Source: Pseudomonas sp. GGS8
GTDB taxonomy: Bacteria; Pseudomonadota; Gammaproteobacteria; Pseudomonadales; Pseudomonadaceae
NCBI RefSeq assembly: GCF_024168645.1
Contig: NZ_JALJWF010000001.1
Span: forward strand, 6,017,501 to 6,081,500
Length of the DNA: 64,000 nt
Direction: 5' to 3'
Below, piece by piece: positions 7,308-30,485 of the stretch. Below the pieces are notes generated by a model. That model was not told the DNA's origin. It did not search any database and saw nothing but the letters and a program-made list of their open reading frames with translations. Every line of letters starts with the position of its first letter. Position 1 is the stretch's first letter. A program made the translations under genes and the position numbers.

Positions 7308-7484
7308 AGGAATGCAAAGCGTGTTTGTATTGGATAGTTAGCAGCCAATAGCGACCACACTTTCTGGCCGACAGTAGCGTTTGGTCAATGTCCACTTCTG
7401 ACCGTTTTCTGCCCGTCACGACTGACCAGGGCTGGCTCCAAATCCCACTTCAGATGAAGGCCGCTTTCCACCAAGCGCCTGCAT

Positions 7485-7766: not shown

Positions 7767-7783
7767 CTGTTCTATGTACAGGC

Positions 7784-8215: not shown

Positions 8216-8242
8216 GTAAGTCCCCCCAGCAAAAAGTATAAA

Positions 8243-8274
8243 TTTTAATGAAAAGCACCCGGTTTTCATTAAAA
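8243..8274. promoter_or_regulatory. Perfect 12-bp inverted repeat, likely Lrp-type operator
   Basis: TTTTAATGAAAA, an 8-base spacer (GCACCCGG), then TTTTCATTAAAA. The arms are perfectly complementary. It lies 27 bases upstream of the Lrp-family start codon and about 140 bases before the divergent YczE gene, in AT-rich DNA. Position and symmetry suggest an autoregulatory operator; binding is inferred. Confidence 0.6.
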
Positions 8275-8415
8275 AATAATGCACCAAAATAAAGCAGAGT
8301 GCTAGTCTATTTGCAGCCCGGTAAAACCTAACAAGAACCCGGGCAGTCAATAGCTCTGAATCCTTAGCGTTACGCACTGCATAATAAAATATTCTCCTCC
8401 AGGGATGGTGTTCGT

Positions 8416-9135: not shown

Positions 9136-9235
9136 CGACTAGAGGATTGCTGCCACTGTGGCGGCGGGATTGTTTCGCCTCGACTATTTCAACCGATGAT
9201 ATTGACAGTAACTTCCGTGAGATGAGGAGTGAGAG

Positions 9236-10720
9236 ATGGACACTACAAAAAATAAAAACTGGACCTTGGAAAGCACGCCTGCAAAGTTGGAAGAAATACT
9301 CCCAAACGGCGTCGTAAAGTGTCATCTTTCTCCCCGAAACTGTGTCATTCAGGAGGGCAAAGTAGGTTTTTGCAAGGTGCGCGGAAACAGAGGCGGCCGG
9401 TTAGTTACGTTGAATTATGGCAAAGGCGTTCACAGCACCGAAGAGACCATCGAAACCGAGGCGGTATTCCACTTTGCTCCCGGAGAGCGAATCCTTTCCC
9501 TAGGCAATATCGGCTGCATGCTTAACTGCGGCTACTGCCACAATTGGAAGACCTCTCAGGCCAAGTATGTGACAGATAAAGATGTTTACTACTATACGCC
9601 TGAACAGGTTGTAGAAACTGCCTTGAAGCATGGTATACGCGTTATCTCCTGGACGTATAACGACCCTGTTGTCTGGCATGAATTCATCCTCGACACGGCA
9701 AAGCTGGCAAAGGAAGCGGGCTTAATCAATTTATATAAATCAGCTTTTTTTATCAGTGAAGAAGCCATTGATGAACTATTGCCCGTCATCGACATATTCT
9801 CGATTTCGCTAAAATCCATCTCCCCCGAATACTATCGAAAAGTCACGACAGGCTGGGTAGAGCCCGTTCTGGCTGGCATCAAGAAAGTATACGATGCTGG
9901 TAAATATGTTGAAGTCAGCACCTTGATGGTTACCGATATCAGTGACGATGAGGATACCGCCAGGAAAATTAGCCAGTGGGTACTGGATGAACTGGGCCCG
10001 AATGTACCGCTCCACTTTGTAAGGTTTCACCCTGATTATAAAATGAGCAATAGCATCAGGACGCCCGTGGATAGACTCCTGAAGGCTCGGGACATTGCCC
10101 GGAGCATGGGGGTTGAGCATGTTTATCTGGGCAACGTCAATGATGTCCAGGGCACCAATACCAACTGCAATAATTGTAACGCTCTACTCGTTACCCGCTA
10201 CGGTTTGAATGCTGAAATAATTGGATTGGATAGCAACGGTTGCTGTGCCCGGTGTGGGCACGACGCACACTTCAAGTTACTGGGCGAACACAAAGCGAAC
10301 GCGCCTGTTGAACTGCAAGAGGCTGCATTGACCTCTTACGAGAAGCGAAAGTTCGAGTGGCATGGGGATATCGTATCGCTGCACGCCCAAGTGCTGAATA
10401 CTGAAGACTTTGAACAGACCGTGTACCTGCGGCGCAACTATACCGACGGGCTCAACAGTGATTGGAAATCACTGACATTGCGGCCGTATGAAAGCTATCG
10501 ATTTATCATTGCCAAGGCACGAATTGATGAATCAGGCCCTGAAGTCTGGCTTCCCAAGGGGGTGAACTCAAATCTTCATGAAGTATTCGACAGGGCTCAC
10601 TTCCCAACCGAGTCGATTGAAGAGATTGGTATTTCGCAAAACGACATCACGCCGACCATTGGGTATGAAGGCAAGCAGAACATGTATGAGCAGGTTATCA
10701 AACTGGTGAGCAAATCATGA
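9236..10720 (+). CDS. Radical SAM enzyme, AmmeMemoRadiSam-like, with unknown C-terminal domain
   Basis: 494 aa; AGGAG ribosome site 8 bases before the ATG. It has a canonical radical SAM CxxxCxxC motif (C94, C98, C101: GCMLNCGYCHNW). An N-terminal Cys set (C29, C36, C46) and a later cysteine cluster (C311, C314, C336, C337, C340) could bind a second FeS cluster or zinc. The core resembles the pyruvate-formate-lyase-activating-like AmmeMemoRadiSam group. Residues from about 355 to 494 form an extra domain I cannot assign. The stop overlaps the start of the PLP enzyme (ATGA), so the two are co-translated and probably act on the same amino-acid substrate. Its chemistry is unknown. Confidence 0.88.
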   Translation: MDTTKNKNWTLESTPAKLEEILPNGVVKCHLSPRNCVIQEGKVGFCKVRGNRGGRLVTLNYGKGVHSTEETIETEAVFHFAPGERILSLGNIGCMLNCGYCHNWKTSQAKYVTDKDVYYYTPEQVVETALKHGIRVISWTYNDPVVWHEFILDTAKLAKEAGLINLYKSAFFISEEAIDELLPVIDIFSISLKSISPEYYRKVTTGWVEPVLAGIKKVYDAGKYVEVSTLMVTDISDDEDTARKISQWVLDELGPNVPLHFVRFHPDYKMSNSIRTPVDRLLKARDIARSMGVEHVYLGNVNDVQGTNTNCNNCNALLVTRYGLNAEIIGLDSNGCCARCGHDAHFKLLGEHKANAPVELQEAALTSYEKRKFEWHGDIVSLHAQVLNTEDFEQTVYLRRNYTDGLNSDWKSLTLRPYESYRFIIAKARIDESGPEVWLPKGVNSNLHEVFDRAHFPTESIEEIGISQNDITPTIGYEGKQNMYEQVIKLVSKS

Positions 10721-11862
10721 ACGTGTCTACTGAAATACTCCATATCAGGGTCGATGACCGAGAGGCCCACCCATCCGTGACGCCTATTTATCAGTGCAGC
10801 GCTTTTAGCGCTGACTCGGCATTCTTCTACTCGAGAAAAGCCAATCCCAATGTGACTGAGCTGGAACAGGTTGTCGCTGCACTGGAAGGAAGCGAATACG
10901 CCTTGGCCTACAGCACCGGAATGAGTGCCATCTACATGGTTCTGGAGCTGCTGAAACCCGGTGGGTCGCTGGTGATCAACAAATATATCTATGGCTGTTC
11001 TTATAAGCTGTTTCAGCGATATGCGGCACGTATCGGTGCGAAACTGACGATTCTGGATCTCACCACGGAAAGTGGATTGAAAGAGTTGCCGTCGAACGTG
11101 GACATGGTCATTTTCGAAACACCGACCAATCCCTTTCTGAAAGATATTGATATTCATGCGGTCAGCAAGGCGGTTAAGCAAAATAACCCACACGCTCTGG
11201 TGGTCGTTGACAACACGTGGGCCACGCCGATATTTCAAAAGCCTCTGAACTTTGGCGCGGATATTTCTCTGTACAGCGCAACGAAGTATTTCTCCGGGCA
11301 TAGCGATGTCATGGGCGGCCTGGTACTCATCAACAATGAAATGATTTATACGCGCCTCCTCGAAGGCCGCTTTTATTCAGGCTCAATATTAGCGCCTAAT
11401 AGCGCATGGCTGCTTCGCAGAAGCATGCAGACATTTAACCTGCGCATGGAGAAACACAGCAACACAACCTCCAGCATGCTCAACTATCTGCGGGAACTGC
11501 CCTTTATTGAGCGTGTTTATTATCCACGAGTCGATGGTAAACAATTGACCGGCTATGGTGGCATTGTGTTTGTTGATATTCGGCCTGATCTGGTCCCCTT
11601 TTACAAAACTTTCACCAGCGCCCTCAAATGGTTTGGAACGGGTACGGGAATGGCCTGTGTCACGTCAATGGTTGCGCAACCCTTTAGTGGAAGCCATGCC
11701 TCGATGACTGAGCAGGAAAAAGCGGATATGGGGATTGAAAAGGGTTTGGTTCGATTGTGTTTTGGTTTAGAGGCCCTTGAGGATCTTAAAGAGGATCTGC
11801 TTCAGGCATTTGTAGCCATGGAAAATATGGCCCATCAAAAAAGTGCACTTAAACCTGCGTAA
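10717..11862 (+). CDS. PLP-dependent Cys/Met-metabolism enzyme (cystathionine gamma-synthase/lyase-like)
   Basis: 381 aa, fold-type I PLP enzyme of the Cys/Met metabolism family: STGMSAIYMVLELL, ETPTNPF, VVDNTWATPIF with Asp165, and the PLP lysine in SLYSATKYFSGHSD (K190). These enzymes catalyse beta- or gamma-elimination or replacement on homoserine, cysteine or methionine derivatives. Overlap with the radical SAM gene (ATGA) implies tight co-expression. It diverges from housekeeping MetB/MetZ in its short N-terminus (VSTEILHIRVDDREAHPSVTPIYQ). Together with the following aminotransferase and the LysE exporter it suggests synthesis of a non-protein amino acid. Exact reaction not determinable. 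Confidence 0.85.
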   Translation: MNVSTEILHIRVDDREAHPSVTPIYQCSAFSADSAFFYSRKANPNVTELEQVVAALEGSEYALAYSTGMSAIYMVLELLKPGGSLVINKYIYGCSYKLFQRYAARIGAKLTILDLTTESGLKELPSNVDMVIFETPTNPFLKDIDIHAVSKAVKQNNPHALVVVDNTWATPIFQKPLNFGADISLYSATKYFSGHSDVMGGLVLINNEMIYTRLLEGRFYSGSILAPNSAWLLRRSMQTFNLRMEKHSNTTSSMLNYLRELPFIERVYYPRVDGKQLTGYGGIVFVDIRPDLVPFYKTFTSALKWFGTGTGMACVTSMVAQPFSGSHASMTEQEKADMGIEKGLVRLCFGLEALEDLKEDLLQAFVAMENMAHQKSALKPA

Positions 11863-11878
11863 CAGATGTTAATCATGA

Positions 11879-11910
11879 GCAACGAGCCTTCCACGGCTCG
11901 TTGCTTTTTT
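11879..11910 (+). terminator. Intrinsic terminator between the two PLP genes
   Basis: GCAACGAGCC-TTCCAC-GGCTCGTTGC with a 10-bp perfect stem and six T residues. It separates the radical SAM/PLP pair from the aminotransferase gene only 15 bases downstream, so it may act as an attenuator setting relative expression. Confidence 0.85.
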
Positions 11911-11924
11911 ATGGAGAAGCGAAA

Positions 11925-13181
11925 TTGCCCAGCGTACTCGAAAAAACGATATTCGAAGACCCTACTCTGAACGTTATCCATCTTCTAAATTCCATTTCCA
12001 GTGAAAATCCAGAGGCAATCTCTCTGGCTTCCGGTCGACCTGACGACGAGCAATGTGACCTGTCCCTCATCGATAAAGGGCTGGCCAGCTATACACGATA
12101 CGCCGCCGATACGGAACATTCACTTGCGACACTACTTTGCCAATATGGAAAAACCACCGGGATTATCAACGGTATAATAGCCGAACACTTGCAGGTGGAT
12201 GAAGGCATAAAGATTTCCAACCCTGAAAGTATTGTCGTGTGTATGGGGTTTCAGGAAGCTGCGACCTTGACACTGCTATCAATCTTTGAAGGAAGTGGTG
12301 TTTTATTAGTGCCTGACCCTGTGTTTTCCGGAATAACGGGTATTGCGAAACTATTAAGAATAACAATTGTACCCGTTCCCGAGGACACCTTCCTCGATCC
12401 ATCTGCCCTGCGCAAGGTAGCTGAAGATCTTGAGTCCAGGGGGGAAAAGGTAAAAGCGCTGTACGCGATTTCGGATTTTAGTAACCCTACTGCTAACAGC
12501 CTTTCCTATGAAGACAGAAAGGCCATGCTCTCCTTGGCCAATGAAATGAATTTTTTTATCCTGGAGGATAATGCCTACAGCTACTTCAGGTACGAGGGAG
12601 ATAAAATCCCCTTGATGAAGTCGATCGACAGTAGTCGAGTATTCCTTCTTGGCTCTTTTGCAAAGTCAATTTTTCCGGGATTGCGTATGGGCTATGTCGT
12701 CGCCCCGGAGAGCGCTGGGGTGATTTCCTTTAGCGCCAGATTATGTAAAGCCAAAAGCTTGATCACCGTCAATACACCGCCCCTGTGCCAAGCAGTTGTC
12801 GGTGGTTTGCTGATAGAGAACAATTACTCTTTAAAAGCGCTCAATCAACCAAGAGTGTTGTCTTACAGGCAGAAAAGAAACTATATGATTGAATGCCTTG
12901 AACGTGAATTCCCGATCAAGGCTGATTCTCGAAGAAGTGTCACCTGGAACCATCCAGAGGGGGGCTTTTTCATCAATGTACAGCTGCCTTTCACCTTTGA
13001 ATATTTTGAAATGTGCGAGTGCGCCAGGAACTTCAAGGTTATCGTATTTCCCACTTCCTTGTTTTCGCTGACGAATGAGGCTGTCACTCAGGTCAGGTTG
13101 TCGTTTAGCAATGCGACAGAATCAGAAATCAAACAAGCGATAGGCAGCCTCAGGGCGTACATTGAATCCAGAATGCAGTAA
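11925..13181 (+). CDS. PLP-dependent aminotransferase, class I/II
   Basis: About 418 aa. The best start is a TTG at 11925 preceded by GGAGAAG; the open frame also extends to a TTG inside the terminator, which is unlikely. Motifs: SLASGRPDDEQ near the N-terminus, SDFSNPTANS (substrate/PLP Asn), FILEDNAYSYFRY and the PLP lysine in LLGSFAKSIFPGLRMGYV (about K247). This resembles the aminotransferase half of MocR regulators and 2-aminoadipate-type transaminases, but no HTH domain is present. It would move an amino group between an amino acid and a 2-oxo acid in the local pathway. The rare start codon just after a terminator suggests deliberately low expression. Confidence 0.82.
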   Translation: MPSVLEKTIFEDPTLNVIHLLNSISSENPEAISLASGRPDDEQCDLSLIDKGLASYTRYAADTEHSLATLLCQYGKTTGIINGIIAEHLQVDEGIKISNPESIVVCMGFQEAATLTLLSIFEGSGVLLVPDPVFSGITGIAKLLRITIVPVPEDTFLDPSALRKVAEDLESRGEKVKALYAISDFSNPTANSLSYEDRKAMLSLANEMNFFILEDNAYSYFRYEGDKIPLMKSIDSSRVFLLGSFAKSIFPGLRMGYVVAPESAGVISFSARLCKAKSLITVNTPPLCQAVVGGLLIENNYSLKALNQPRVLSYRQKRNYMIECLEREFPIKADSRRSVTWNHPEGGFFINVQLPFTFEYFEMCECARNFKVIVFPTSLFSLTNEAVTQVRLSFSNATESEIKQAIGSLRAYIESRMQ

Positions 13182-19642: not shown

Positions 19643-19687
19643 ACGTTGGCCGCCGAGGAGATTGCGCCCCTGCCGGGCGCACCATAA

Positions 19688-19721
19688 AAAATCCGATGCC
19701 AGAGGTCTGGCATCGGATTTT
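19688..19721. terminator. Strong bidirectional intrinsic terminator
   Basis: A 16-bp perfect stem (AAAATCCGATGCCAGA and its complement) around a 2-base loop, with T-runs on either strand. It ends the catabolic operon on the plus strand and probably the long biosynthetic operon arriving from the other side. Confidence 0.85.
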
Positions 19722-19819
19722 CGAGGAAGCCCTGCTGAGACTCAAGTACTTAAGTGAACAGCATTACGGTCATTGGCCGGACCTTGTCAATGCAGGGCTT
19801 GCGAAACACTCGTTCCTTA

Positions 19820-20455
19820 TCAGGTGAGCGGTTTGCGCAGCAGGATATCGACCGCGAAGACGCCCAGGACAGTCCCGGACACCCAGCGTTGGGTGCGCAT
19901 GGCAGAGGGTCGCTTGGCCAGGAATCCGCTGACCCGGGAGGCGGCGAGGACGATCATTCCGTTCACGGTGACGGCAATGGTGATCTGTACCAGCCCCATC
20001 TGGATGAATTGCTGGAAGGTAGACCCTGCGGAAGGGTCGATGAACTGGGGAATCAGCGCGGAATACATCAGCGCAATCTTCGGATTCAACAGGTTCGTCA
20101 CCAGCCCCATGGTGAACAGCCGTCTCGGCGAGTGAGGTGGCAGCTCCCGCGCCTCGAAGGGGGAACTCCCCCTGGGCTTCAGCATGTTCCAAGCCAGATA
20201 GCCTAGATAAAATGCGCCTGCGATCCTGACGACATCGTAGGCGACTGGCACTGCCTTGAACAAAGCGGCCAGTCCCAGTCCCGCCGCCAACAGGTAGCAC
20301 ACGAAGCCTAGCGCCACACCCGCCAGCGAAATCATCCCGGCCAACCGCCCCTGGGAAATCGCCCGCGAGGTCAGGTAAATCATGTTGGGACCCGGCGTCA
20401 GAACCATGCCCAAGGAGATGATGGCCACACCGGCCAGGTTTTCCAGCGCCATCAT
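19820..20455 (-). CDS. LysE/RhtB-family exporter, last gene of the biosynthetic operon
   Basis: 211 aa from the ATG at 20455; its start overlaps the SDR stop by one base (TAATG), so the longer open frame upstream is a shadow. About six membrane spans; IISLGMVLTPGPNMIYLTSRAISQGRLAGMISLAGVALGF is the classic RhtB/LysE N-terminus with its PGPN motif, and NLLNPKIALMYSALIPQF lies mid-protein. RhtB proteins export neutral amino acids. As the last member of the carbamoyltransferase/ATP-grasp operon it most likely exports the product, as LysE proteins do in vinylglycine clusters. Confidence 0.92.
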   Translation of the reverse strand: MMALENLAGVAIISLGMVLTPGPNMIYLTSRAISQGRLAGMISLAGVALGFVCYLLAAGLGLAALFKAVPVAYDVVRIAGAFYLGYLAWNMLKPRGSSPFEARELPPHSPRRLFTMGLVTNLLNPKIALMYSALIPQFIDPSAGSTFQQFIQMGLVQITIAVTVNGMIVLAASRVSGFLAKRPSAMRTQRWVSGTVLGVFAVDILLRKPLT

Positions 20456-21249
20456 TAGCGTGCTCCTTCGTTCAATGGAGATTTGTCGGCTCGCTGTTCG
20501 AGCCAGCCGAGACTGCCGCGGAACAGCGCATGCTGAGCGCGCTGTGCCACTGGCCGAACCACGATTTCGTCGACATTGACATGGGCGGGCTGATCGGCAA
20601 CCCAGGCCACGACCTGGGCGACATCGTCCGCGCTCAAAGGCCGGTCGACATCCTTGTAGAGGGCGCTGACCCGTTCGGCGTCGCCACGAAAACGATTCAA
20701 GGAAAACTCTGGCGTATGCACCATGCCGGGGAGCACTTCGGTGATGCGCACCGGTACACCCTTCATCTCCAGTCGCAAGGACTGGGTCAGTGCGCGCTGA
20801 GCGCCCTTGGCCGCGCAATAACCGCCTCCCCCCTCATAACTGGCCAGCGCAGCCGTAGAGGTAATATTGATGATGGCCCCTTGGGATGCGATGAGCCGAG
20901 GCAATAGCAGTTGGGTCATCCGCAAAGTCCCCAGTACGTTGCTGTTGAACATGTTAGTCCAATCCTCAGCACTGGCCGTGTCTACCGCATCCAGGCCGAT
21001 CGCACCGCCCGCACAGTTCACCAGAAGATCGCACTCGCAAATCTGTCCCAAGTCCTCCTCTCGCGCTTGTGTCACATCCAGCACAATGGCGCGTCCGCCG
21101 GTTTCGTCGGCAATCTGCTCGAGCCGATCCCCCCTGCGCGCCACAAGGAATACCCGCCAGCCACTTCTGGCCAAGGTACGAGCGCAGGCCTCGCCAATGC
21201 CACTGCTGGCACCTGTAACAACTGCTGTTTTCAAGATTGAGCGCCCCAT
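20455..21249 (-). CDS. SDR oxidoreductase (YdfG-like) of the biosynthetic operon
   Basis: 264 aa. TGASSGIGEACARTL cofactor motif, LVNCAGGAIGLDAVD, catalytic Ser in NITSTAALAS and YCAAKGAQ. The sequence is close in style to serine/3-hydroxy-acid dehydrogenases of the YdfG group (EVLPGMVHTPEFSLNRFRGD). It overlaps the ATP-grasp gene by 19 bases and the LysE gene by one base, hence tightly coupled. A role in oxidising a hydroxyl set by the upstream TauD or HDO enzymes is plausible inference. Confidence 0.88.
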   Translation of the reverse strand: MGRSILKTAVVTGASSGIGEACARTLARSGWRVFLVARRGDRLEQIADETGGRAIVLDVTQAREEDLGQICECDLLVNCAGGAIGLDAVDTASAEDWTNMFNSNVLGTLRMTQLLLPRLIASQGAIINITSTAALASYEGGGGYCAAKGAQRALTQSLRLEMKGVPVRITEVLPGMVHTPEFSLNRFRGDAERVSALYKDVDRPLSADDVAQVVAWVADQPAHVNVDEIVVRPVAQRAQHALFRGSLGWLEQRADKSPLNEGAR

Positions 21250-22427
21250 GACTCGGATAAATGTTCGAAGATCGTTCCCACGTCTCGTACCAACGCGGGA
21301 CGATCGAAGCTGCGCAGACGAAGGCGCGTGCCAGAGCCCTCATAAACACCGCTGGCGAAGCGATCCAGGTTCTGCGGCTGAGCCCAGTACAGGGTACCCA
21401 AACCATCACGCGGCGAGCTGTTGCGGCGGGCGATCACCCATGCCCCCCGCTCGCGGTGCAATGGCCTGCCCTCCTTGCTAAGGCTGCGCGCAAGGTCCCT
21501 GTAGCGGGTAGACGCCCCGGTCTGGATTTCCCAAGCGATCCCCAGCAGGTCGATATCCCTCACCTCTCGCCAGAGGAACGGGATTTCGGCGCCACCGACC
21601 CGGGCACCGATTTCCAGGAACAGCAATTGGTCATCCAGGTCGAACAGTTCGAGGTGGAAGACGATTTCTCGCTCAGGCGCGAAGACTGCCAGCAGTTGCT
21701 CGACGCGCCCCGCAATCCGCCGTTCGTCATCGCCCTCCTCGAGTTCGATGCTACCCAGCGGGCTGTCCGGACCGAAATCGGCACAGCTGTTCACATAACG
21801 CGACGCCGTGACGACCACTATCCGTTGCCCATCCCACCAGCCGTCCACGTGCAGGATGGGGGCCGCGCAGTAAGCCTGGACCATCATCGGCTCCGTGGCC
21901 TGACTAATCTGATCAAGATCCCTTGGGCCGCGAAGAAACCTTACGCCGCGACTCGCCGTGCCGTAGCGCGGCTTGAGCACCAGCGGATAGCCGTGTTCAG
22001 CGGCCAGTCGCTCCACCGCTTCGCGGGAATCTGCAGGCGAGGCAGGCAGCACGCCGATCGACGATTGCCGGCCTGCGACCTCCAGCATGGTGAGCTTGTC
22101 GCGAAACCGCTCGGTCCACGCGACAAGATCTCCCGGTACCTGCCATCGCTCACGGATAGAAGCCGCATTGAGCAGGTCGCCCTCATTGAGGGCAACCACC
22201 AGCGCTGGAACGCCATGTTGCTCGACCAGACGCTCGGCCTCAGCCATGACCGCCTCAGCATCGTCCAGTGAGACGAGCGCCGAACTTGACGCCAGGCGCT
22301 CGCTCGGCAGGGACGCGCAGGATTCGGGCGTACAGATCGCCCGAATCTGCATTCCTGCTGGCAGTTCGTATCGGTCGTATAGCGCTTGGCTGCCGACCCA
22401 ACGGTGCAAGCAGAGGACATATTTCAT
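21231..22427 (-). CDS. ATP-grasp enzyme (second of two), probable carboxylate-amine ligase
   Basis: 398 aa. ATP-grasp features: AEHGYPLVLKPRYGTASRGVRFL (ATP-lysine and glycine loop), MMVQAYC, IVFHLELFDLDDQLLFLEIGARVGGAEIPFL (metal-binding Glu and Arg/Gly loop). Members of this group join a carboxylate to an amine through an acyl phosphate, as in L-amino-acid ligases that make dipeptides. It overlaps the other ATP-grasp gene by ATGA, so the two are made together and may add two different residues. The substrate is unknown. Confidence 0.85.
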   Translation of the reverse strand: MKYVLCLHRWVGSQALYDRYELPAGMQIRAICTPESCASLPSERLASSSALVSLDDAEAVMAEAERLVEQHGVPALVVALNEGDLLNAASIRERWQVPGDLVAWTERFRDKLTMLEVAGRQSSIGVLPASPADSREAVERLAAEHGYPLVLKPRYGTASRGVRFLRGPRDLDQISQATEPMMVQAYCAAPILHVDGWWDGQRIVVVTASRYVNSCADFGPDSPLGSIELEEGDDERRIAGRVEQLLAVFAPEREIVFHLELFDLDDQLLFLEIGARVGGAEIPFLWREVRDIDLLGIAWEIQTGASTRYRDLARSLSKEGRPLHRERGAWVIARRNSSPRDGLGTLYWAQPQNLDRFASGVYEGSGTRLRLRSFDRPALVRDVGTIFEHLSESWGAQS

Positions 22428-23680
22428 GCCGTGGGATCCACGATGAAGTTGACCGCCGCTACCAGTTCGTCACCGATACGCACGGCATCCTCGCGCGAGG
22501 AGCCTGTTGCCAGGACGTACCCTGAAACGCAGTCGGCAACGGTGTCGAGCGGTGGAATCGTATCGCCCTCATGCTTCTGGATGACTACGGCACGCTCGGC
22601 TGCGCCCAGTTCGAACAGGAACGGCAGGAACACCCGTGGAGTCTCGCCCGACTTGGTATGGCGTACATCGACGTCAGGCTTGAGATCGAGCTCGACCTTT
22701 CTGACCTTGCCAGGCGTCGGTACGAAGAACTGGATCGCGGCACCCGCCTTCGGCTCGGGCGACACATCCGGCAGGGTGTCGATACCCAGCGGCACAGTCA
22801 GGAACATGCGGTTCAGGTCCAGGCCGAACGCACGCCGCACCAGTTCCGGGGCACCCGAGCCCGCCAGGCGAGCGTGGGATTCGAGTACACGAGGACCTTT
22901 CGGGGTAAGCACAAACTCGCTGTGGGAAGGACCTTCCTCCAGCTCTACGGCATCGAGCAGGCGGCAGGTCATTTCCTTCAGCTCGCTCAGCCATTTCCTG
23001 GCCTCGGTGCTCGGCGTGCTGACTTCCCACTCAACGTATTTGTCGTTCATGCGGTACTGGGAGTAACCAATCGGCAGGTGGCGCCCCTTGAACGAGAAGG
23101 AGTCGACGCTGACGACCGGCCCCTCCAGGTACTCCTCGATGATAATGTGCTTGACGTCGGCATCCTGAAGCGCCTGCCAGGCCTTGGAAGCAGAGGCTGC
23201 GTCATCGCAGGGATGGATATGCAGGCTGGCCACGCCTTCGGCGGGTTTGAGAACCGACTTGCCATGCTCTTTGACGAACGCGACGGCATCCTGCGCACTG
23301 GTGACATGGCGATAGGCAACCGGGCTCAGGTTGTGCTCGACCAGCAACTCGCGCATGGCCACTTTGTCCTTGAGCAGGCGCGCAGTCTTATAGGAAACCC
23401 CGGTGAGACCGAAGTGATCGACCACCTTGCCCGTTGACTCGCCCGCCACTTCGGTAGTGGTCATGATGCGGTCGAACGGACGTTCGCGGTGCAGCGGCTC
23501 GAGGACCTTGATAATGGCCTCGGCGTCGTCAATCCTGGCATGCACCACCTGTTCGCAATGGGCGAGGATTTCCTGCTCGTAGTCACCCTCTTGATGCACC
23601 AGTACGACGTCGATGCCCAGCTCCTTGGCACCGTGAATGGGCGAGGGACGGCCACCGACTACTGCGATACGCTTATTCAT
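22424..23680 (-). CDS. ATP-grasp ligase (first of two), L-amino-acid-ligase-like
   Basis: 418 aa. Rossmann-like N-terminus (MNKRIAVVGGRPSPIHGAKELGIDVVLVHQEGD), then the ATP-grasp core: EHGKSVLKPAEGVASLHI, IIIEEYLEGPVVSVDSFSFKG, EEGPSHSEFVLTPKGPRVLESHARLAGSG, which has the carboxylate/metal-binding HxEF...E.H.R.AG motif of the carbamoyl-phosphate-like and dipeptide-ligase branch. The lone Lys and paired acidic residues look intact. 44 bases after TauD and overlapping the next ATP-grasp. It suggests that the final product or an intermediate is a peptide or amide. Confidence 0.88.
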   Translation of the reverse strand: MNKRIAVVGGRPSPIHGAKELGIDVVLVHQEGDYEQEILAHCEQVVHARIDDAEAIIKVLEPLHRERPFDRIMTTTEVAGESTGKVVDHFGLTGVSYKTARLLKDKVAMRELLVEHNLSPVAYRHVTSAQDAVAFVKEHGKSVLKPAEGVASLHIHPCDDAASASKAWQALQDADVKHIIIEEYLEGPVVSVDSFSFKGRHLPIGYSQYRMNDKYVEWEVSTPSTEARKWLSELKEMTCRLLDAVELEEGPSHSEFVLTPKGPRVLESHARLAGSGAPELVRRAFGLDLNRMFLTVPLGIDTLPDVSPEPKAGAAIQFFVPTPGKVRKVELDLKPDVDVRHTKSGETPRVFLPFLFELGAAERAVVIQKHEGDTIPPLDTVADCVSGYVLATGSSREDAVRIGDELVAAVNFIVDPTA

Positions 23681-23724
23681 GCATGAACTCCATGTCTATT
23701 GTGATGGTTTTTTGAAGCAAAGGC

Positions 23725-24681
23725 TCAACTGCCGTATACCCTGCGCAGCCAGCGTGCCTTGCCGTTGAGCAGAGGCTGGAACGCCTTGCGGCGGTGCAGC
23801 ACGCGGGCATTTTTGAAAATGAAGAAGTCACCTGGTTGCAACACCACCTCTATACCCTGGGCATCGCGCAGGCACTGGCGCAGGAGCCCAAGTGCCTTTT
23901 CGCTGTCCAGGTCGAGGGCGGCCACGATGCCATCGTCAAAGCGCAGGCGATAACCACCCTCGTCGTGCTCCAGCACCGGCAGCACCCTCGGCTGGCCATC
24001 GAAGCCCTCGTTGGAGGCAGGGGCGCCAAAGGTGTAGGCAGACTTCTGCAACTGGGCGATCGCCCAGCCGGGCAGCTTTGAAAGGACATGATCCACACAA
24101 ACAATGTCGGTGGAGGCGCCTTCAAAGTTGCGCACGGCGGTAAAGGCCAAGAAGTTCGGCACGGCGGTCGCGACATTTCGGCCTTGATCGGCAAAGGGCC
24201 AGTTGGGATTGTCGGTGTGCCAGAAAAACTCCACATCCGCGCCCCAAGAGCTGGTGGTGCCCGCGGCCTCCGGAACCGGAACGACATTTCTGACCAGCTT
24301 GCCGAAGTTTTCATACTCGACTGCATGCGGCCTGACACCGAGCAGCCGCAACATGCCAAAGTGCAGCAGATCGAAGTCAAGAACACACTCGGCGTTGGGC
24401 AGGAAACCATTGCGCGGCGTCGCGACGTCCGTAGAGAGCGAAATGCCTCTGATGAGCAACGCTTTGTGCGGGCTGGCAGGAAATGCGCGAATTGCCTCGA
24501 CGATGTCCTGGCCCAACACGGTACCGAGCCAGTCCCCGCCGACTGCACCCACACTGTCAGCGCAGTGCGGCGTTTCGGCCAGCCTCACGCGACAGCCCTC
24601 CAGCCCGGTGAGGTCGGGATCATTGACGACCACCACCTGTACCAACGAAGCCTCCTGAACATCCATGGCCATGACGCTCAT
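23725..24681 (-). CDS. TauD/TfdA-family Fe(II)/2-oxoglutarate dioxygenase
   Basis: 318 aa from the ATG at 24681, which overlaps the stop of the small ORF upstream (ATGA); the frame is open further but is not coding there. Metal-binding HxD is in EFFWHTDNPNW and the distal His in FKNARVLHRRKAF, with the Arg for 2-oxoglutarate close by (RRKAFQPL). N-terminal region ends with PLARV-like support. These enzymes hydroxylate, desaturate or epoxidise small amino-acid-like substrates using iron, oxygen and 2-oxoglutarate. In this operon it may install the hydroxyl or double bond of the product. Confidence 0.9.
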   Translation of the reverse strand: MSVMAMDVQEASLVQVVVVNDPDLTGLEGCRVRLAETPHCADSVGAVGGDWLGTVLGQDIVEAIRAFPASPHKALLIRGISLSTDVATPRNGFLPNAECVLDFDLLHFGMLRLLGVRPHAVEYENFGKLVRNVVPVPEAAGTTSSWGADVEFFWHTDNPNWPFADQGRNVATAVPNFLAFTAVRNFEGASTDIVCVDHVLSKLPGWAIAQLQKSAYTFGAPASNEGFDGQPRVLPVLEHDEGGYRLRFDDGIVAALDLDSEKALGLLRQCLRDAQGIEVVLQPGDFFIFKNARVLHRRKAFQPLLNGKARWLRRVYGS

Positions 24682-24794
24682 GATTTGCGGTTCAGGTATG
24701 AGGTGGCCTTGGGGTCCGGCTGATGAGCGAACGCCTTGGTTCGTCGGATAAACATCCCCAGCGGCAGGATCAGGTAGAGCAGAACATAATCCAT
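24678..24794 (-). CDS. Small ORF 2: 38-aa membrane-type peptide
   Basis: A 117-base ORF (ATG at 24794, TGA at 24678). GGAAGG lies 6 bases before the ATG. The N-terminal half is hydrophobic (MDYVLLYLILPLGMF), then comes a basic stretch IRRTK and a polar tail ending LNRKS. The start is 28 bases after the carbamoyltransferase stop and the stop overlaps the TauD ATG (ATGA), the same coupling seen between the certain genes. It is too short for ordinary gene callers. I do not recognise it. It looks like a single-pass membrane microprotein. The FVG cluster of P. fluorescens WH6 is reported to need two ORFs under 150 nt, which makes this one worth taking seriously. Confidence 0.72.
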   Translation of the reverse strand: MDYVLLYLILPLGMFIRRTKAFAHQPDPKATSYLNRKS

Positions 24795-24822
24795 AGTGCA
24801 CCTTCCCTAGTGTATGAAAGAG

Positions 24823-26664
24823 TTAATCCAGCGGTACTGTCTCGCGCCAGTCGACCGCCTCCTCGAACTGAGGCTGCTCCGATTTATCGAGGTAGAAGTC
24901 GCCGATCGCCAGCACATCCATGTTGGTACGCATAAAGCAGCGATAAGCTTCGAACGGCGTGTTCACAATGGGCTCACCGCGCACGTTGAACGAGGTGTTG
25001 ACCAATACTGGACACCCTGAACGCTGATAGAAGTGTTCAAGCAGCGCCCGGAACCGCGGGTTGCGCTCCCGGTCCACGGTCTGCACCCTTGCCGAGAAGT
25101 CCACGTGGGTGATTGCCGGCAGATCGCTACGCACCAACTTGAGCAAGTCGATCCCGGTAAGCCGCGCACTCTCCTGTGGGATCGCCTTGCGAATGCCCGT
25201 TGCAATTGGCGAGACCACCAGCATGTAGGGGCTTTCCTCGACGATGTCGAAGTAGTCTGCCGCTTTTTCCTCAAGCACCACGGGAGCGAAGGGGCGGAAG
25301 GACTCGCGGAACTTGATGCGCAGGTTCATGTTTGACTGGGTGTCCGAGCGACGCGGATCACCCAGGATCGAACGGCTGCCAAGCGATCGCGGACCGAACT
25401 CCATTCGCCCCTGGAACCAGCCGATGACCCCGCCGTCCTCTATGCTGGTGCTCACCCGCTGGTCGAGCTCTTCCTGCGAAAGCCTGTGAAAAACAGCGCC
25501 GCAGGCTTCCAGTTCGTCCCTGATCTGCTCCTCGCTGTACTCCGGTCCAAGCAATGCTCCGCTCATGCCATCGCGCACGCCAGCAGGCAGCTCGCGGCTT
25601 GCTACCCTGCGATGCTTGCGGTCAGTCAGCAGCGCGGCGCCCAGCGAGCCACCCGCATCGCCAGCCGCCGGTTGCACCCACAGACGGTCGAAAATCCGCT
25701 CACGCGAGATCACGCCGTTGGCTACGCAGTTAAGGGCTACGCCCCCGGCCATGCACAGCGCGGTCTCGCCAGTGAGCTCACGGGCGGTCTTGGCCAGGCG
25801 CGAAACGACTATCTCCGTGACTTTCTGCACCGATGCTGCCAAATCGAACTCGCGATCGGTAAGGGGGGCCTCGGGCAAGCGCCGCGGACCACCGAACAGC
25901 TGCTCAAAGGCATCGCCCGTCATGACTTGGCCTTTGATGAACTCAAACTTGGTCCAGTCGAGCCTGAAGCTGCCATCGGGCTTCACATCGATCAGATGCG
26001 AGAGGATCATGTCGACGTAATGAGGCTTGCCATATGGCGCAAGTCCCATGAGTTTGTATTCGCCGGAGTCCACCTTGAAGCCACAGAAATAGGTGAAGGC
26101 CGAATAGAGCAGGCCCAGCGAATGGGGAAAGGACAACTCGGCGACCAGCTTGATACCTTCTGGCCTGCCGTGCCAGATGGTGGTCGTCGCCCATTCGCCG
26201 ACACTGTCGATGCACAGGATCGCGGCGCTCTCGAAAGGACTGGGGAAGAATGCCGATGCGGCGTGGGACTCGTGGTGACCATGCACGTCGATTCGGCGAC
26301 CGTCCCGGTCCCCCATCGCTCTGAGATGACGCACGACCTCACGGTCCATCCGGCGCTTGGTTGATAACCATTCGCCAAGCACCGGTGCGTAGGTGCGCGC
26401 TGCCGAAAACCCGGCCACAGCGGCCGTCGAGAGTACCCGACGGAACTTGAGTGCCGGGTCTTCGTAATAGGCAACATGGTCGACATCAGCCAGGTTTATA
26501 CCTGCGTTCCTCAGGACGTACTCGATGGCCTTGCGTGGAAAACCCGGGTCATGCCGTATCCGGCTGAAACGCTCTTCCTGGGCCGCGGCAACGATCTTGC
26601 CGTCCACCACCAGAGTGGCCGCGCTGTCGTGATAAAAGGCAGAAATGCCAAGCGTAATCGTCAT
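24823..26664 (-). CDS. O-carbamoyltransferase (NodU/CmcH/TobZ family)
   Basis: 613 aa, the usual length of the family. The N-terminal Kae1-like domain has ISAFYHDSAATLVVDGKIVAAAQEERFSR and the metal-binding HHESHAASAFF, then IDSVGEW and YSAFTYFCGFKVDSGEYKLMGLAPYG. The YrdC-like C-terminal domain follows with GRMEFGPRSLGSRSILGDPR and FRPFAPVVLEE. The enzymes transfer carbamoyl from carbamoyl phosphate via carbamoyl-AMP to a hydroxyl or related acceptor. Its start overlaps the HDO gene stop by ATGA. A related enzyme is a signature gene of the FVG cluster, where carbamoylation is thought to prepare an oxy-vinylglycine intermediate. Substrate here is unknown. Confidence 0.92.
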   Translation of the reverse strand: MTITLGISAFYHDSAATLVVDGKIVAAAQEERFSRIRHDPGFPRKAIEYVLRNAGINLADVDHVAYYEDPALKFRRVLSTAAVAGFSAARTYAPVLGEWLSTKRRMDREVVRHLRAMGDRDGRRIDVHGHHESHAASAFFPSPFESAAILCIDSVGEWATTTIWHGRPEGIKLVAELSFPHSLGLLYSAFTYFCGFKVDSGEYKLMGLAPYGKPHYVDMILSHLIDVKPDGSFRLDWTKFEFIKGQVMTGDAFEQLFGGPRRLPEAPLTDREFDLAASVQKVTEIVVSRLAKTARELTGETALCMAGGVALNCVANGVISRERIFDRLWVQPAAGDAGGSLGAALLTDRKHRRVASRELPAGVRDGMSGALLGPEYSEEQIRDELEACGAVFHRLSQEELDQRVSTSIEDGGVIGWFQGRMEFGPRSLGSRSILGDPRRSDTQSNMNLRIKFRESFRPFAPVVLEEKAADYFDIVEESPYMLVVSPIATGIRKAIPQESARLTGIDLLKLVRSDLPAITHVDFSARVQTVDRERNPRFRALLEHFYQRSGCPVLVNTSFNVRGEPIVNTPFEAYRCFMRTNMDVLAIGDFYLDKSEQPQFEEAVDWRETVPLD

Positions 26665-28772
26665 AGCAGCGACCTCACTTTTTCGCGAAACTTATCCAGC
26701 ATTGTTTGCTCCCTGGGTGGATTGAGCGCGACGAATCCATTACGGACGCGCGCCCAGAGTTCATCACGGTCACTTCGAGAAAATGCGCAAAGGTAGGTAT
26801 CCAGACTCGCGGCAGCCCATGCCGTATGCCCGGTGGAGATGTTGTCGATGGAGTTGTGCAGATCGACGAACATCGTCGGATAACCGTAGGCAACCAACGC
26901 CTTGTGGGTACGCCGATAACCGCCCCCTACTCCGGACAGCTCCATCGCCAGGTTCAGCCCGAGAATCTCCGGGCAGTAGGTTTGGGGGTATCGCCCGATA
27001 GACAACCAGAACACGGGCAGCTCGAAGTTCTCGTCGTTGAAGCAAGCGGCGTTGGCGTATCCAGGGTCAGCGGTGGCCGGCAACTCGCCATGTACGGCCT
27101 TGAGCAGATGGCGGTAGATGACCGGATGGTTCTGCGCCTCGATTCCATTGCCCAACTCATCGAAAAGCGTTTCGAACAGTCTGCTGCCGTACGCCGTGGA
27201 GGCTACCGCCGGGTGGGCGAACCCGGCCAGCCAGGCCCCGTCGATCATTGTCAGCGGCGCCAGGGACAGGATATCGGCGACCACCTCATCGCGAGACGGC
27301 AGCTCTTCGTCCTGCTCCAGTGCCTGGTTGGAGGCTTCATGCTGGCCCTGCAACCACTGCTGCAGGACACCGGGAGCCCAATGCTCCGGCAACGAGCAAT
27401 GCCCCTTGGTGACGCCAAGGGCGGCCCTGGCCAGCCAGCTCTTTACGTAGTGACCGGCATAGGCTTCCTCTGACGGCGTGAGCTCCATTCGCAACAGGCG
27501 CGGGTAGGCCTGTCGCGGGCTGAATCTGGCGGCCAACGCGCCGGTTTCAGCGACCTCGCGAAAAGTCCCGGCGAGTTTGCCGTCGTCTTTCCATACCTGG
27601 AAAGCCGGGGTCTGCCTGGGCGCATCGGAGTAAGGCAAACTGGAGATCCAGCGGTGAAGAATGGCAATATCGTCGCGACTGAAGATTCGGAACATCTTGC
27701 CCCGCGGCGAAATCAGGCTGGTGAGCAGTGGACTCGATTCCGGCTTGCCCGCCCGCACGTAGGCGCTGGCGGCAAGATGGTCGAGAAACTTCAAAGAGTC
27801 GTCGACCGCGAGCAAGGGCTTCATCGGCACCTTATTCAACTGAGTCTTGTCATGGTATTGGCAAGCATCCAGCCGACGTCGGCTGATCAGGTGGCGCGCC
27901 GCCTCTCTCGGATCGAGCCAGCGCTCAAGTACATCGAGCAGCGCCTTGTTCATCTCCTCGGCCTGCCAGCGCGCCCACAGGTAGCCTTGGCGTACCCCAT
28001 CGTTTCCGGCAGCGCCCATTTGCACGAGAAATTCCCGGACTGCCGTTTCGGCGAGCACGGCAAGATCATCGGTACTACCGGCGGGGTCGCAACGCAGATC
28101 GAGAAATTGGCGGGCGGACGGCTCGTTATGGGCGATGAACTCAAACGAGGGCAACAGCCCGCAATGGCGCAGGTAAAGGTTGACCCCCAAGATCTGGGCC
28201 GTCAGCGACTCCGGGAAATGCCCCAATACGACCAGGGTCGAGGCAAAGTTGAAGGCTCCATCCGAGATCCTCGGGTCGGCCACCGCTCGCAGGAGATCTT
28301 CGCCAGCATCTGCCAGCGCATGCTGACGCAGCAATTCCTGGTAGCGCTGGATACGACTGGCCCCCGGCTGACCGGCACCCACATCCACCGCATGAATACG
28401 CAGCGCTGCCATCGCATGGCGCGCTTCATTATTCCAGCTGCCGCACACCCCATGAATCAGGTGCTGACTGCCGATCAGAAAGGGAGCCGACTCCAACGCC
28501 GCCTTGGCATGCAACGCCTGGGCATCCGCTTCGCTCCCCTCGATTGTCTGTGCCAACCTTCGGAAACCGTCGCGCAACGGCCCAAGCCGCTCGCATGCAA
28601 CACTCGCCAGCCCAGCCAAAGCCGCCGGGCTGGTGAAGTCGATGTCTGCCAAGTCCGTCCCATGCACCGCATCCAGGCAAGTGCGCAGGGTGACCGACGT
28701 GAACATACGCCTGGCCTCTCCCCCGGTCTCTGCCCCGAGGAAGCTGGAAAAGATTTGCCTATTAGTCTTCAT
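26661..28772 (-). CDS. Iron-containing redox enzyme (heme-oxygenase-like diiron oxygenase, HDO), two-lobed
   Basis: 703 aa. The C-terminal half holds an intact HDO core: CPEILGLNLAMELSG (Glu near 602 and 611), then a His/Asp-rich stretch VDLHNSIDNISTGH (about 636-649). The middle of the protein carries a related but degenerate copy (LTAQILGVNLYLRHCG) in which the Glu is replaced by Gln, so the protein looks like a duplicated HDO domain with one catalytic lobe. HDO enzymes use two irons and oxygen to oxidise amino or carbon positions, including N-oxygenation. The ATG at 28772 overlaps the stop of small ORF 1 by one base and has no obvious ribosome site, so it depends on coupling. Confidence 0.85.
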   Translation of the reverse strand: MKTNRQIFSSFLGAETGGEARRMFTSVTLRTCLDAVHGTDLADIDFTSPAALAGLASVACERLGPLRDGFRRLAQTIEGSEADAQALHAKAALESAPFLIGSQHLIHGVCGSWNNEARHAMAALRIHAVDVGAGQPGASRIQRYQELLRQHALADAGEDLLRAVADPRISDGAFNFASTLVVLGHFPESLTAQILGVNLYLRHCGLLPSFEFIAHNEPSARQFLDLRCDPAGSTDDLAVLAETAVREFLVQMGAAGNDGVRQGYLWARWQAEEMNKALLDVLERWLDPREAARHLISRRRLDACQYHDKTQLNKVPMKPLLAVDDSLKFLDHLAASAYVRAGKPESSPLLTSLISPRGKMFRIFSRDDIAILHRWISSLPYSDAPRQTPAFQVWKDDGKLAGTFREVAETGALAARFSPRQAYPRLLRMELTPSEEAYAGHYVKSWLARAALGVTKGHCSLPEHWAPGVLQQWLQGQHEASNQALEQDEELPSRDEVVADILSLAPLTMIDGAWLAGFAHPAVASTAYGSRLFETLFDELGNGIEAQNHPVIYRHLLKAVHGELPATADPGYANAACFNDENFELPVFWLSIGRYPQTYCPEILGLNLAMELSGVGGGYRRTHKALVAYGYPTMFVDLHNSIDNISTGHTAWAAASLDTYLCAFSRSDRDELWARVRNGFVALNPPREQTMLDKFREKVRSLL

Positions 28773-28867
28773 CAGTGCATTGGATATATGGAGGAATTGT
28801 TTTTCTTCTTGGCTTTTTTCTTTTTCTTGAACAAAGAGCCAAGTGCCTTGCGAATTCGCTTTAACAT
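28772..28867 (-). CDS. Small ORF 1: 31-aa lysine-rich peptide
   Basis: A 96-base ORF (ATG at 28867, TGA at 28774-28772). AGGAGG lies 6 bases before the ATG. The N-terminal part is an amphipathic basic helix (MLKRIRKALGSLFK), the middle is almost all lysine, and the end is NNSSIYPMH. Ten of 31 residues are Lys and two are Arg. The stop overlaps the HDO start (TGATG), and the start is 16 bases after the SGNH stop. Its ribosome site is the best in the operon. I do not recognise it. It could be a scaffold or leader for product assembly, a partner for an enzyme, or a regulator of HDO translation. Confidence 0.75.
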   Translation of the reverse strand: MLKRIRKALGSLFKKKKKAKKKNNSSIYPMH

Positions 28868-28883
28868 AGAGCCTCCTAAACTT

Positions 28884-29933
28884 TCACTGCAGGTATCGAT
28901 GAATGGCGCGTGCTACGACATCACTGCCAAGGTCGGTAAAGTGCGCGCGATCAACGTATAACCATTCATCGCCCGGACGTTCTCTAAAATCATCGATCAG
29001 ACTGGCAAATCGAATACCCAAGTCATGACAACTATTGGCCAGACTATCGGCGTAATATTCCGCGACAGCGGGAGTGGATATGTCGCCATATAAATGCTGC
29101 CAAGTACCAAACCGGGAAATCCGATCAAGTTCATCGAACAGCTTCTGCTCTTCGGCACACGGCGTCCTTACCCAAGTCGCCAAGGGCTGGAGAACAAACG
29201 TAAGTTCCGCACCCAAAGAATCCGCGAGTCGTTTCCAGGTCGTCAGACAATTCATGGTGTCTTGTAGAGCGCGTACCAGAGTTTGCGAAATCGGCGGAAC
29301 CTCAGTCGTTTCGGCTGGCCACTTTGGAAGTTTACCAGGCGGCAGTTCTGCACCATTTTCCTCAGCAATTTCATCAAACTTTTCGTAATAGTCACCGCAG
29401 AAGTAGAACGGTGGCAGATCACCTCGAATAAACTCAGGAAGACGCGCCATGACCAGAGTATTGAAGCCGCCCATGATCACGATACGTCGCAACGCAGGCA
29501 GTCGATGGGCATGCAGCATAAACAGCATCAATTCCTGGGTCGCGTTAAAGGTATGCCCAGCAAAATTCAGCCATGGCGTACCGCGAGAATCATGCGCGGA
29601 CAGGCGGCTCGCTACCGAGGCAGCATCACTGGAGGCCCCGTAACCCAAGGCTGACGAGGCCCCGACCAGCAAATTCACTTCTGGCAGCGCGCAGGCCTCC
29701 AGGTTGCCGACACTGACCGGCCGGCCTTGCGCATCATAGGCCAGGCGAAATCCGAGCCGATCGGTATTGATCGCTTCCGAACGGTAATCGGCGGCATTGA
29801 AACCCATCACATAAGGCAGGTACTGGGAACGACTGCGACTGGCAAATTGATCGTAGGTGAGCATCTGAGGTGTCAACTTCACACGTTCCAGACTGGGATC
29901 GTCCAATGCAATGCGTTTGCGTCTTTTAAACAT
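28884..29933 (-). CDS. SGNH/GDSL-hydrolase-like protein, first gene of the operon
   Basis: About 349 aa from the ATG at 29933 (AAGGAG 10 bases upstream; a TTG at 29939 is possible). It shows an SGNH-like layout: nucleophile block VNLLVGASSALGYGAS, where GAS replaces the usual GDS, then IVIMGGFNTL in the block III position, and DRAHFTDLG with the Asp-x-x-His pair near the C-terminus. The N-terminal part (DRLGFRLAYDAQGRPVS) resembles proteins annotated as SGNH or phenazine-inducer-like in pseudomonads. It could hydrolyse or transfer an acyl group on the product. Translation leads closely into small ORF 1 (16-base gap). Confidence 0.7.
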   Translation of the reverse strand: MFKRRKRIALDDPSLERVKLTPQMLTYDQFASRSRSQYLPYVMGFNAADYRSEAINTDRLGFRLAYDAQGRPVSVGNLEACALPEVNLLVGASSALGYGASSDAASVASRLSAHDSRGTPWLNFAGHTFNATQELMLFMLHAHRLPALRRIVIMGGFNTLVMARLPEFIRGDLPPFYFCGDYYEKFDEIAEENGAELPPGKLPKWPAETTEVPPISQTLVRALQDTMNCLTTWKRLADSLGAELTFVLQPLATWVRTPCAEEQKLFDELDRISRFGTWQHLYGDISTPAVAEYYADSLANSCHDLGIRFASLIDDFRERPGDEWLYVDRAHFTDLGSDVVARAIHRYLQ

Positions 29934-30485
29934 GGCCAAGCCACTCCTTATAGCGAGAATCAGAATTCCATTTGATCAGCCAATTTTTTGGGACGAACGG
30001 GCACCCTCGATTATTTAATATCGAAAGTGCGAACCTGCTAATAACGACCCACAGCAAGCCAGGCACCATAAGTTTGGGATATCACTAATCCAAACAGTTA
30101 GATGCATGAAGCTCGAAATTAATTAAAACCGGGTGCGAGCAAAATAATTCACAGCACAATGCGACGAGGTGGGAAATTCAGTGATGGCTTTTGCGAGGTG
30201 CAATTTGAAAGTATTGCAGACTGCAATACGGTGATGTGGATAGCTTCCATGCATTGTATCGTCCCTTTTACTTTTATTCTTTTCGGCCCATCCGAGGGGC
30301 TCATGCGATCGATTCTAGACATTGAATCCCAAATGTCAAATGAAAGTACCTGCATTTTATCCATGAAAAAAAATATTCATGAAAGGCGCGTAAATCAACA
30401 AACCCTATGTATACCCGGTCACACTCCTGACAGAAACTGACAGCGCCTCCTTTATGCTGCGTCCACCTTCTAATGGAGCCGCCCC
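29934..30485. other. AT-rich upstream region of the biosynthetic operon
   Basis: About 550 bases of AT-rich DNA between the first operon gene and the DUF1254 remnant. It holds the 19-bp palindrome at 30211-30229. A short open frame at 30159-30440 has no convincing ribosome site or composition. The operon promoter most likely lies here. Confidence 0.5.
30211..30229. promoter_or_regulatory. Perfect 19-bp palindrome, candidate operator
   Basis: GTATTGCAGACTGCAATAC: nine-base arms fully complementary around a central A. It lies about 280 bases upstream of the SGNH gene and downstream of the TetR gene that points the same way. Symmetry of this kind is usual for TetR-, GntR- or LuxR-type dimers. 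Which protein binds is not known. Confidence 0.5.

Follow-up and report, generated by a model that had tools for sequence, protein, structure and literature searches.

What does an operon make when it carries the core genes of the cluster for the natural herbicide 4-formylaminooxyvinylglycine (FVG) among a different set of partners, and what do its two tiny open reading frames (ORFs) contribute? The question is raised by ten ORFs on the reverse strand, at 19820-29933, of a 64,000-nucleotide stretch of Pseudomonas sp. GGS8 DNA (contig NZ_JALJWF010000001.1, positions 6,017,501 to 6,081,500; hereafter the window), which belongs to a 6.72-Mb genome assembled as one contig. In the order of transcription, the genes are A, B, C, F, G, TauD, ATPg1, ATPg2, SDR (short-chain dehydrogenase/reductase) and LysE (Table 1); all of them start with ATG and have no internal stops. 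Comparison with related loci and with known pathways makes it probable, although by no means certain, that this transferable gvg-like operon works as a peptide-templated pathway similar to those of ribosomally synthesized and post-translationally modified peptides (RiPPs).

Genes A and B and the crocagin precursor

Gene A, which a sequence-only reading of the locus had left unnamed, matches no Pfam or NCBIfam family. Homology identifies it as an SGNH hydrolase of the type of CgnD, the leader peptidase of the crocagin pathway in Chondromyces crocatus. The crocagin precursor is described as having 21 residues, with an 18-residue Lys/Arg-rich leader, whose Asn directly precedes the core Ile-Tyr-Trp, in which Tyr and Trp are conserved and Ile is variable. 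The adjacent micropeptide B (MLKRIRKALGSLFKKKKKAKKKNNSSIYPMH) contains 32% Lys and is preceded by a Shine-Dalgarno-like aggagg. B resembles the crocagin precursor in its basic leader, a small or polar residue and the following Ile-Tyr, but differs from it in length and in having Pro instead of the Trp of the Tyr-Trp core. By sequence, A and B look like a leader peptidase and a precursor peptide of the crocagin type, and this likeness suggests that B may serve as a substrate or a template and may not be a mere accessory.

Like the window, the crocagin cluster combines the CgnD-type hydrolase and a short basic precursor, with Ile-Tyr near its C-terminus, with a carbamoyltransferase and an alpha-ketoglutarate-dependent oxygenase. 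The window operon lacks CgnB, CgnE, the core Trp and a methyltransferase, while it adds a haem-oxygenase-like enzyme, ATP-grasp ligases and a second micropeptide. The absence of CgnB and CgnE refers to the operon, whose eight full-length products belong to other families and whose micropeptides do not reach the necessary length; no search for the two proteins was made elsewhere in the genome. No link between gvg genes and crocagin or ribosomal peptides was found among the listed results of the literature searches, in which few subscription journals are represented, nor did term look-ups in PMC8064604 and PMC7744662 return one. The new point is a crocagin-type A-B pair that appears to be common to the window and the FVG clusters.

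Neither B nor G matches a Pfam or NCBIfam family. Both had been claimed as genes, and single-base codon differences among nine loci (the window and eight relatives) show that both behave as coding sequences: 29 synonymous versus 9 non-synonymous differences for B (ratio 3.22, chance 0.24) and 41 versus 22 for G (ratio 1.86, chance 0.34). In G, a hydrophobic N-terminal segment is followed by a polar tail.

The best-kept part of B is its end. The tail S-I-Y-P-[ML]-X was found in the 23 loci first examined, where its last two residues vary: seven of the nine window-type loci have MH and the other two MY, all nine FVG-type loci have MF and five others LR; a Leu-Phe pair and a Lys run are kept in the leader of eight aligned examples. 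Further tails are DASIYPMF in Photobacterium, within an FVG-type cluster that includes H and I, DDASIYPMF in Streptomyces, SSIYPLR in Agrobacterium vitis, GGSIYPLR in Acinetobacter baumannii, and SSIYPMF in the loci L098 and L099, B being located before C and about 5 kb from A in the latter. Near variants occur in Pantoea At-9b (STYPLR) and L100 (DNYPMF). Among 34 loci with an A homologue, 29 contain the strict tail, two a near variant and one (L114) an out-of-frame TIYPLF beside a frame-broken A; the tail was not found in the remaining two, both distant (L101, in which A lies within a ligase-like ORF, and L102). When 16,381 stop-to-stop ORFs with a length of 20 codons or more were scanned, covering 662,085 bases of loci but not the window itself, 29 ORFs ended in IYP[ML]x, all of them B peptides, in 28 loci.

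The A-B pair persists at loci where C was not found (L088, L089), and in L100 it is kept where neither C nor F was found. These observations bear on the main rival explanation, B as a docking peptide for a free-amino-acid pathway, which we consider possible but doubtful. B and G would then be accessory peptides and not substrates, and ordinary amino acids would be the starting material from which the operon makes a modified amino acid in free form: SIYP[ML]X would dock on A, C or F, or B would tether enzymes to the membrane, A would be an esterase or acyl hydrolase, and the pathway would run as the FVG literature assumes. Such a role would suit the short basic N-terminal stretch of B and the hydrophobic one of G (both judged by eye), the motif-like conservation of the last residues of B, the LysE exporters, which carry amino acids, and the nature of FVG itself, a free amino acid whose production is described as regulated by Glu, Asp, Gln and Asn (PMC8067088). 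It leaves unexplained, however, the CgnD homology of A together with the CgnA-like basic leader and Ile-Tyr of B, and A-B pairs also exist without C and F.

Several side observations concern A and B at individual loci. In L100 (8664-9823), the two genes share a 4-base overlap, and the surroundings resemble sugar or O-antigen genes by eye. In L114 (genome G846, 9706-10900), the broken frame of A and the out-of-frame tail may reflect decay or an assembly error. In L081 (5364-5623), B is followed directly by another, incomplete copy of its tail, resembling a gene duplication. Within the window, gene A (28887-29933) has a G+C content of 0.533 (0.536 at third positions), while the other seven long operon genes lie above it, with 0.607-0.628 (0.663-0.791 at third positions).

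Relation to the gvg cluster

The gvg cluster of Pseudomonas fluorescens WH6 comprises the genes R and A to K. They are described as encoding a lipase/esterase-type protein (gvgA), a small ORF product with about 30% Lys (gvgB), a haem-oxygenase-like protein (gvgC), a NodU-family carbamoyltransferase (gvgF), a small ORF product with a transmembrane or signal segment (gvgG), a class III aminotransferase (gvgH) and a formyltransferase (gvgI); published mutants indicate that gvgA, gvgB, gvgC and gvgF are each required for FVG (PMC8067088). Davis et al. 2021 define a gvg-like class by the core gvgA, B, C and F, with at least eight variants that are mostly uncharacterised, expect these clusters to yield other amino-acid-like products, and state that gvgB is dropped from NCBI annotations (PMC8064604).

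Among 398 Pseudomonas genomes, nine contain a close copy of F (82-100% identity) and 14 a copy with 54-58% identity; some match to F exists in 395 of the 398, the further ones listed being distant carbamoyltransferases with 35-38% identity. The copies of C split alike, with nine at 61-100% and 14 at 32-38%. Neighbourhoods were compared for 18 of the F/C-positive genomes and four named ones. Against nine FVG-type loci, the window proteins show identities of 38-42% (A), 33-35% (C) and 56-57% (F), and B and a G-like peptide occupy matching places. G follows F, as does the 47-49-residue ORF of the FVG-type loci; sequence similarity between the two is weak (24-27%), while position and composition are more alike. 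Homologues of gvgA, gvgB, gvgC and gvgF occur together in the window, as do two small ORFs like those of the complete gvg cluster, of which the first is rich in Lys and the second has a hydrophobic segment. A core of A, B, C, F and G is common to both cluster types and the rest is exchanged. This bears out the relation to FVG, tiny ORFs included, that the sequence-only reading had proposed. The description of the operon as undescribed was too strong, since gvg-like clusters with this core are a published class (PMC8064604).

Like the WH6 cluster, the window has gvgA, B, C, F and the G-type micropeptide in the same order, a Lys-rich B and LysE export. It differs in its additional TauD enzyme, two ATP-grasp ligases and SDR, in a B that ends in MH (MY in two relatives) and not MF, and in the absence of gvgH and gvgI. 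With queries taken from Photobacterium L083 and a search limited to the fetched stretches (16 kb for the window), both genes were found in all nine FVG-type loci (L069-L077, from the group with 54-58% identity; gvgI is cut by the contig end in L072) and neither in the nine window-type loci or in L078-L082, in agreement with the claimed lack of an aminotransferase and a formyltransferase. FVG was rejected as the product of the window operon because gvgH and gvgI are absent. A GntR/MocR regulator corresponding to gvgR was not seen among ten chosen ORFs flanking the operon.

The same absence weighs on the model put forward in the sequence-only reading, in which A, C, F and the peptides would make an oxyvinylglycine-type amino acid that ATP-grasp enzymes then ligate with another amino acid to give a dipeptide or amide. 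The core common to the window and the FVG cluster is consistent with this model, as are the L-amino-acid-ligase (LAL) C-terminal domain of ATPg1 and the amino-acid ligases that are its nearest solved relatives. Nevertheless, it is unlikely: gvgH and gvgI, present in each FVG-type locus, are missing, so that nothing shows that oxyvinylglycine arises in the window pathway, and the TauD enzyme is nearest to beta-hydroxylases.

The window variant may already be among the published gvg-like variants. Thiomonas is one of the genera listed for gvg-like clusters (PMC8064604), and relatives of the window's A and ATPg2 occur in Thiomonas arsenitoxydans, Paraburkholderia and Halomonas, so the variant may have been published there. 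An FVG-type set of A, B, C, F, aminotransferase and formyltransferase is present in L083 (6430-13917) on the 1.69-Mb plasmid pGJ3-1 of Photobacterium sp. GJ3; Photobacterium is not named among the FVG-type hosts in the available part of Davis 2021 (PMC8064604).

A probable peptide-templated pathway

In the proposed pathway, the enzymes of the operon would modify a peptide or a residue joined to it. The family names previously given to seven genes were correct by Pfam (PF14518 for C, Carbam_trans_N/_C for F, TauD, ATP-grasp twice, SDR and LysE). The C-terminal domain of C keeps candidate metal ligands among D511, D538, E539, H549, E602, E611, H639, D643 and H649, whereas residues 1-300 contain no invariant Glu, Asp or His (E15 is nearly so), and the N-terminal domain seems to be without metal; a Foldseek comparison of a C model with the PDB gave nothing at E <= 0.001. 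Relatives of F in the PDB are the novobiocin carbamoyltransferase, GdmN and TobZ. The TauD enzyme matches the GntD, VioC and CS1 profiles, each below cut-off, and Arg hydroxylase structures with E 3e-12; its H155-x-D157 and H296 are invariant in five of five sequences. ATPg1 is a putative L-amino-acid ligase, combining ATP-grasp with an LAL C-terminal domain (LAL_C2, 30.7 bits against a cut-off of 29.4; ATPgrasp_N is also above cut-off), and matches 3vot with E 1.5e-16. The weakest family call is that of ATPg2, which matches a single family, CPSase_L_D2, just above cut-off, and has relatives in Thiomonas, Paraburkholderia and Halomonas. Ring closure by an ATP-grasp enzyme, as in D-cycloserine formation, was considered as a possibility, and the cyclic carbonate of aldgamycin as a guide to the chemistry of the core.

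With B as the substrate, we infer the following sites and order of reactions. Translation of B would give a peptide of 31 residues that starts with a basic leader and ends in S-I-Y-P-M-H, and the leader would recruit the enzymes, perhaps via the N-terminal domain of C. F would carbamoylate the tail or a residue joined to it, while the same part would be oxidised by C, through a putative diiron domain like that of the N-oxygenases SznF, RohS and HrmI, and by the TauD-type oxygenase. A would then cut the modified part off B, ATPg1 and ATPg2 could add one or two amino acids to the released product or close an amide, and LysE would export it.

Two known systems offer partial parallels. The std RiPP cluster of Streptomyces thermodiastaticus is described as having a NodU-like carbamoyltransferase that acts on the precursor peptide, as proposed for F, but differs from the window in the type of its peptidase and in its use of YcaO-TfuA and an MNIO oxidase. 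The mangotoxin mbo cluster shares with the window a haem-oxygenase-like diiron enzyme and two ATP-grasp ligases and builds a peptide, which is, however, ligase-made and not ribosomal; carbamoyl terms were not found in the available text (PMC13185094). The same source counts at least 25 cluster types that pair such a diiron enzyme with an ATP-grasp ligase (PMC13185094), and the window operon may be among them.

A peptide-templated pathway would explain why gvgA, gvgB, gvgC and gvgF are required for FVG, why the tail is the best-kept part of B and why A and B stay together. It predicts that in WH6 FVG is also made on or from the peptide GvgB. The source of the FVG atoms is left unexplained by it: FVG contains none of Ile, Tyr and Pro, and B may accordingly be a scaffold and not a source.

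A further explanation takes B mainly as a signal or regulator, which A would process into a pheromone-like peptide or ligand with control over other metabolites as well as the operon. In WH6, expression across the entire cluster is reported to fall when gvgA or gvgC is deleted, and iopA and iopB, the counterparts in P. chlororaphis, to affect phenazine (PMC8067088). This explanation is nonetheless very improbable, as clusters with B hold sets of biosynthetic enzymes, often with amino-acid exporters, and the feedback by the cluster product proposed by the WH6 authors explains the expression effect without a pheromone (PMC8067088).

The FVG pathway and the roles of gvgA, gvgB and gvgC are called unknown in the available text of PMC8064604 and PMC8067088. 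With gvgA similar to a proven leader peptidase and gvgB to a precursor-like peptide, this question can be addressed simply, with a peptide some 27-31 residues long, and a peptide template may underlie the FVG family of amino-acid antibiotics. In the count of a 2026 preprint, two RiPP pathways include a carbamoyltransferase (PMC13174530). If a peptide template is indeed used, the gvg-like clusters would add to these a group that is represented in 23 Pseudomonas genomes out of 398 and, with one record each, in Photobacterium, Agrobacterium, Acinetobacter, Pantoea and Streptomyces, and that could be mined via the SIYP tail.

Extent, distribution and variants of the operon

Table 1. Features of the operon and its surroundings, with positions in the window.
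Feature	Position	Strand	Assignment or basis
Gene A, 349 residues	28884..29933	-	GvgA-type SGNH hydrolase, homologous to CgnD, the leader peptidase of crocagin
Gene B, 31-residue Lys-rich micropeptide	28772..28867	-	Proposed precursor or scaffold; conserved tail, codon test
Proposed B core Ile-Tyr-Pro-Met-His	28775..28789	-	Analogy with crocagin core Ile-Tyr-Trp; putative boundary
Gene C, 703 residues, GvgC-type two-domain haem-oxygenase-like protein	26661..28772	-	PF14518, invariants, structural comparison
Gene F, 613 residues, GvgF-type carbamoyltransferase, NodU/TobZ kind	24823..26664	-	PF02543, PF16861, PDB relatives, tree
Gene G, 38 residues, GvgG-type micropeptide	24678..24794	-	Place after F, codon test
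TauD-type Fe/2-oxoglutarate oxygenase, 318 residues	23725..24681	-	Nearest to amino-acid beta-hydroxylases
ATPg1, 418 residues, L-amino-acid-ligase-like ATP-grasp enzyme	22424..23680	-	LAL_C2, ATPgrasp_N, 3vot
ATPg2, 398 residues, divergent ATP-grasp enzyme	21231..22427	-	Profile matches
SDR, 264 residues, optional	20455..21249	-	Pfam, locus comparison
LysE-type amino-acid exporter, 211 residues	19820..20455	-	PF01810
Promoter-like TTGACA-16-TAGAAT	30312..30339	-	406 nt before A
Shared-DNA unit	19771..30422		Typical similarity ends versus four closest relatives

The genes are as tightly packed as the sequence-only reading had it, with overlaps of 1 (B/C), 4 (C/F), 4 (G/TauD), 4 (ATPg1/ATPg2), 19 (ATPg2/SDR) and 1 (SDR/LysE) bases and gaps of 16 (A/B), 28 (F/G) and 44 (TauD/ATPg1) bases. 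DNA similarity extends from about 19,660-19,772 to 30,421-30,444 against the four closest relatives and from about 19,797-19,829 to 29,935-29,979 against four others; beyond these ends, no more matches to the eight relatives were found within the fetched flanks. Since similarity ends on both sides of the operon, it behaves, by this comparison, as one transferable unit. No tRNA genes were found in the window.

ATPg1 (E <= 1e-50) occurs in nine of the 398 Pseudomonas genomes, exactly those with the close F type. The locus L098, from genome G647 of another family (67% complete), has the same gene content in a different order (C, F, a G-like ORF, LysE, A, B, TauD, ATPg1, ATPg2) and adjoins a GntR/aminotransferase-type regulator. 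Its identity to the window is 61-62% for A, 71% for ATPg1, 53% for TauD and 51% for ATPg2, against no more than 35% for C and 55% for F, and a carbamoyltransferase tree places it on the FVG side on a long branch, L098, L099 and other long rows being flagged as unsure by the program. These identities and the place in the tree suggest that A moves as one set with TauD and the ligases, and that this set joins C and F of differing lineages. The co-occurrence of ATPg1 with F and the locus L098 led to rejection of the idea that TauD and the ligases accompany the core by chance. The SDR gene is whole in five of the nine window-type loci (the window, L002, L003, L065 and L066), reduced to a remnant of about 30 codons in L004 and L005, and was not found in L067, L068 or L098.

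Among named organisms, Pseudomonas sp. CT11-2 and P. frederiksbergensis have the proteins most closely related to A and ATPg2. Homologues of A occur in seven of 398 genomes of a phylum sample, two of them Pseudomonas, in two of 369 genomes of a class sample, one being the window's own, and in five of 72,556 plasmid records. Plasmid matches to ATPg1 and TauD show 26-35% identity in the best 12 of 297 and of 88 records, respectively.

Upstream of A, the TTGACA-16-TAGAAT pattern recurs at a similar place in six of the nine window-type loci, the window included; in the promoter scan overall, sites were no commoner than in shuffled sequences (3 versus 3.4). A possible upstream ORF of 43 residues lies at 30123-30254, its ATG and spacing being common to nine loci. 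An attenuation leader peptide at this place was dropped, as conservation of the reading is poor, with divergence in L067 and L068.

Two plasmids carry other combinations. In L089 (plasmid pPAT9B04 of Pantoea sp. At-9b, 6240-12763), A, a B-like ORF ending in STYPLR and F are accompanied by a PhyH-type dioxygenase and two ATP-grasp genes; the diiron enzyme was not found at this locus, which represents a sister design to the window operon. In L084 (Agrobacterium vitis plasmid pRvVAR031a, 1318-13452), a minimal set C-LysE-F-A-B lies downstream of genes annotated as a diaminobutyrate aminotransferase, a SidA/PvdA-type monooxygenase and a PLP-dependent transferase, and perhaps belongs to another N-O amino-acid pathway.

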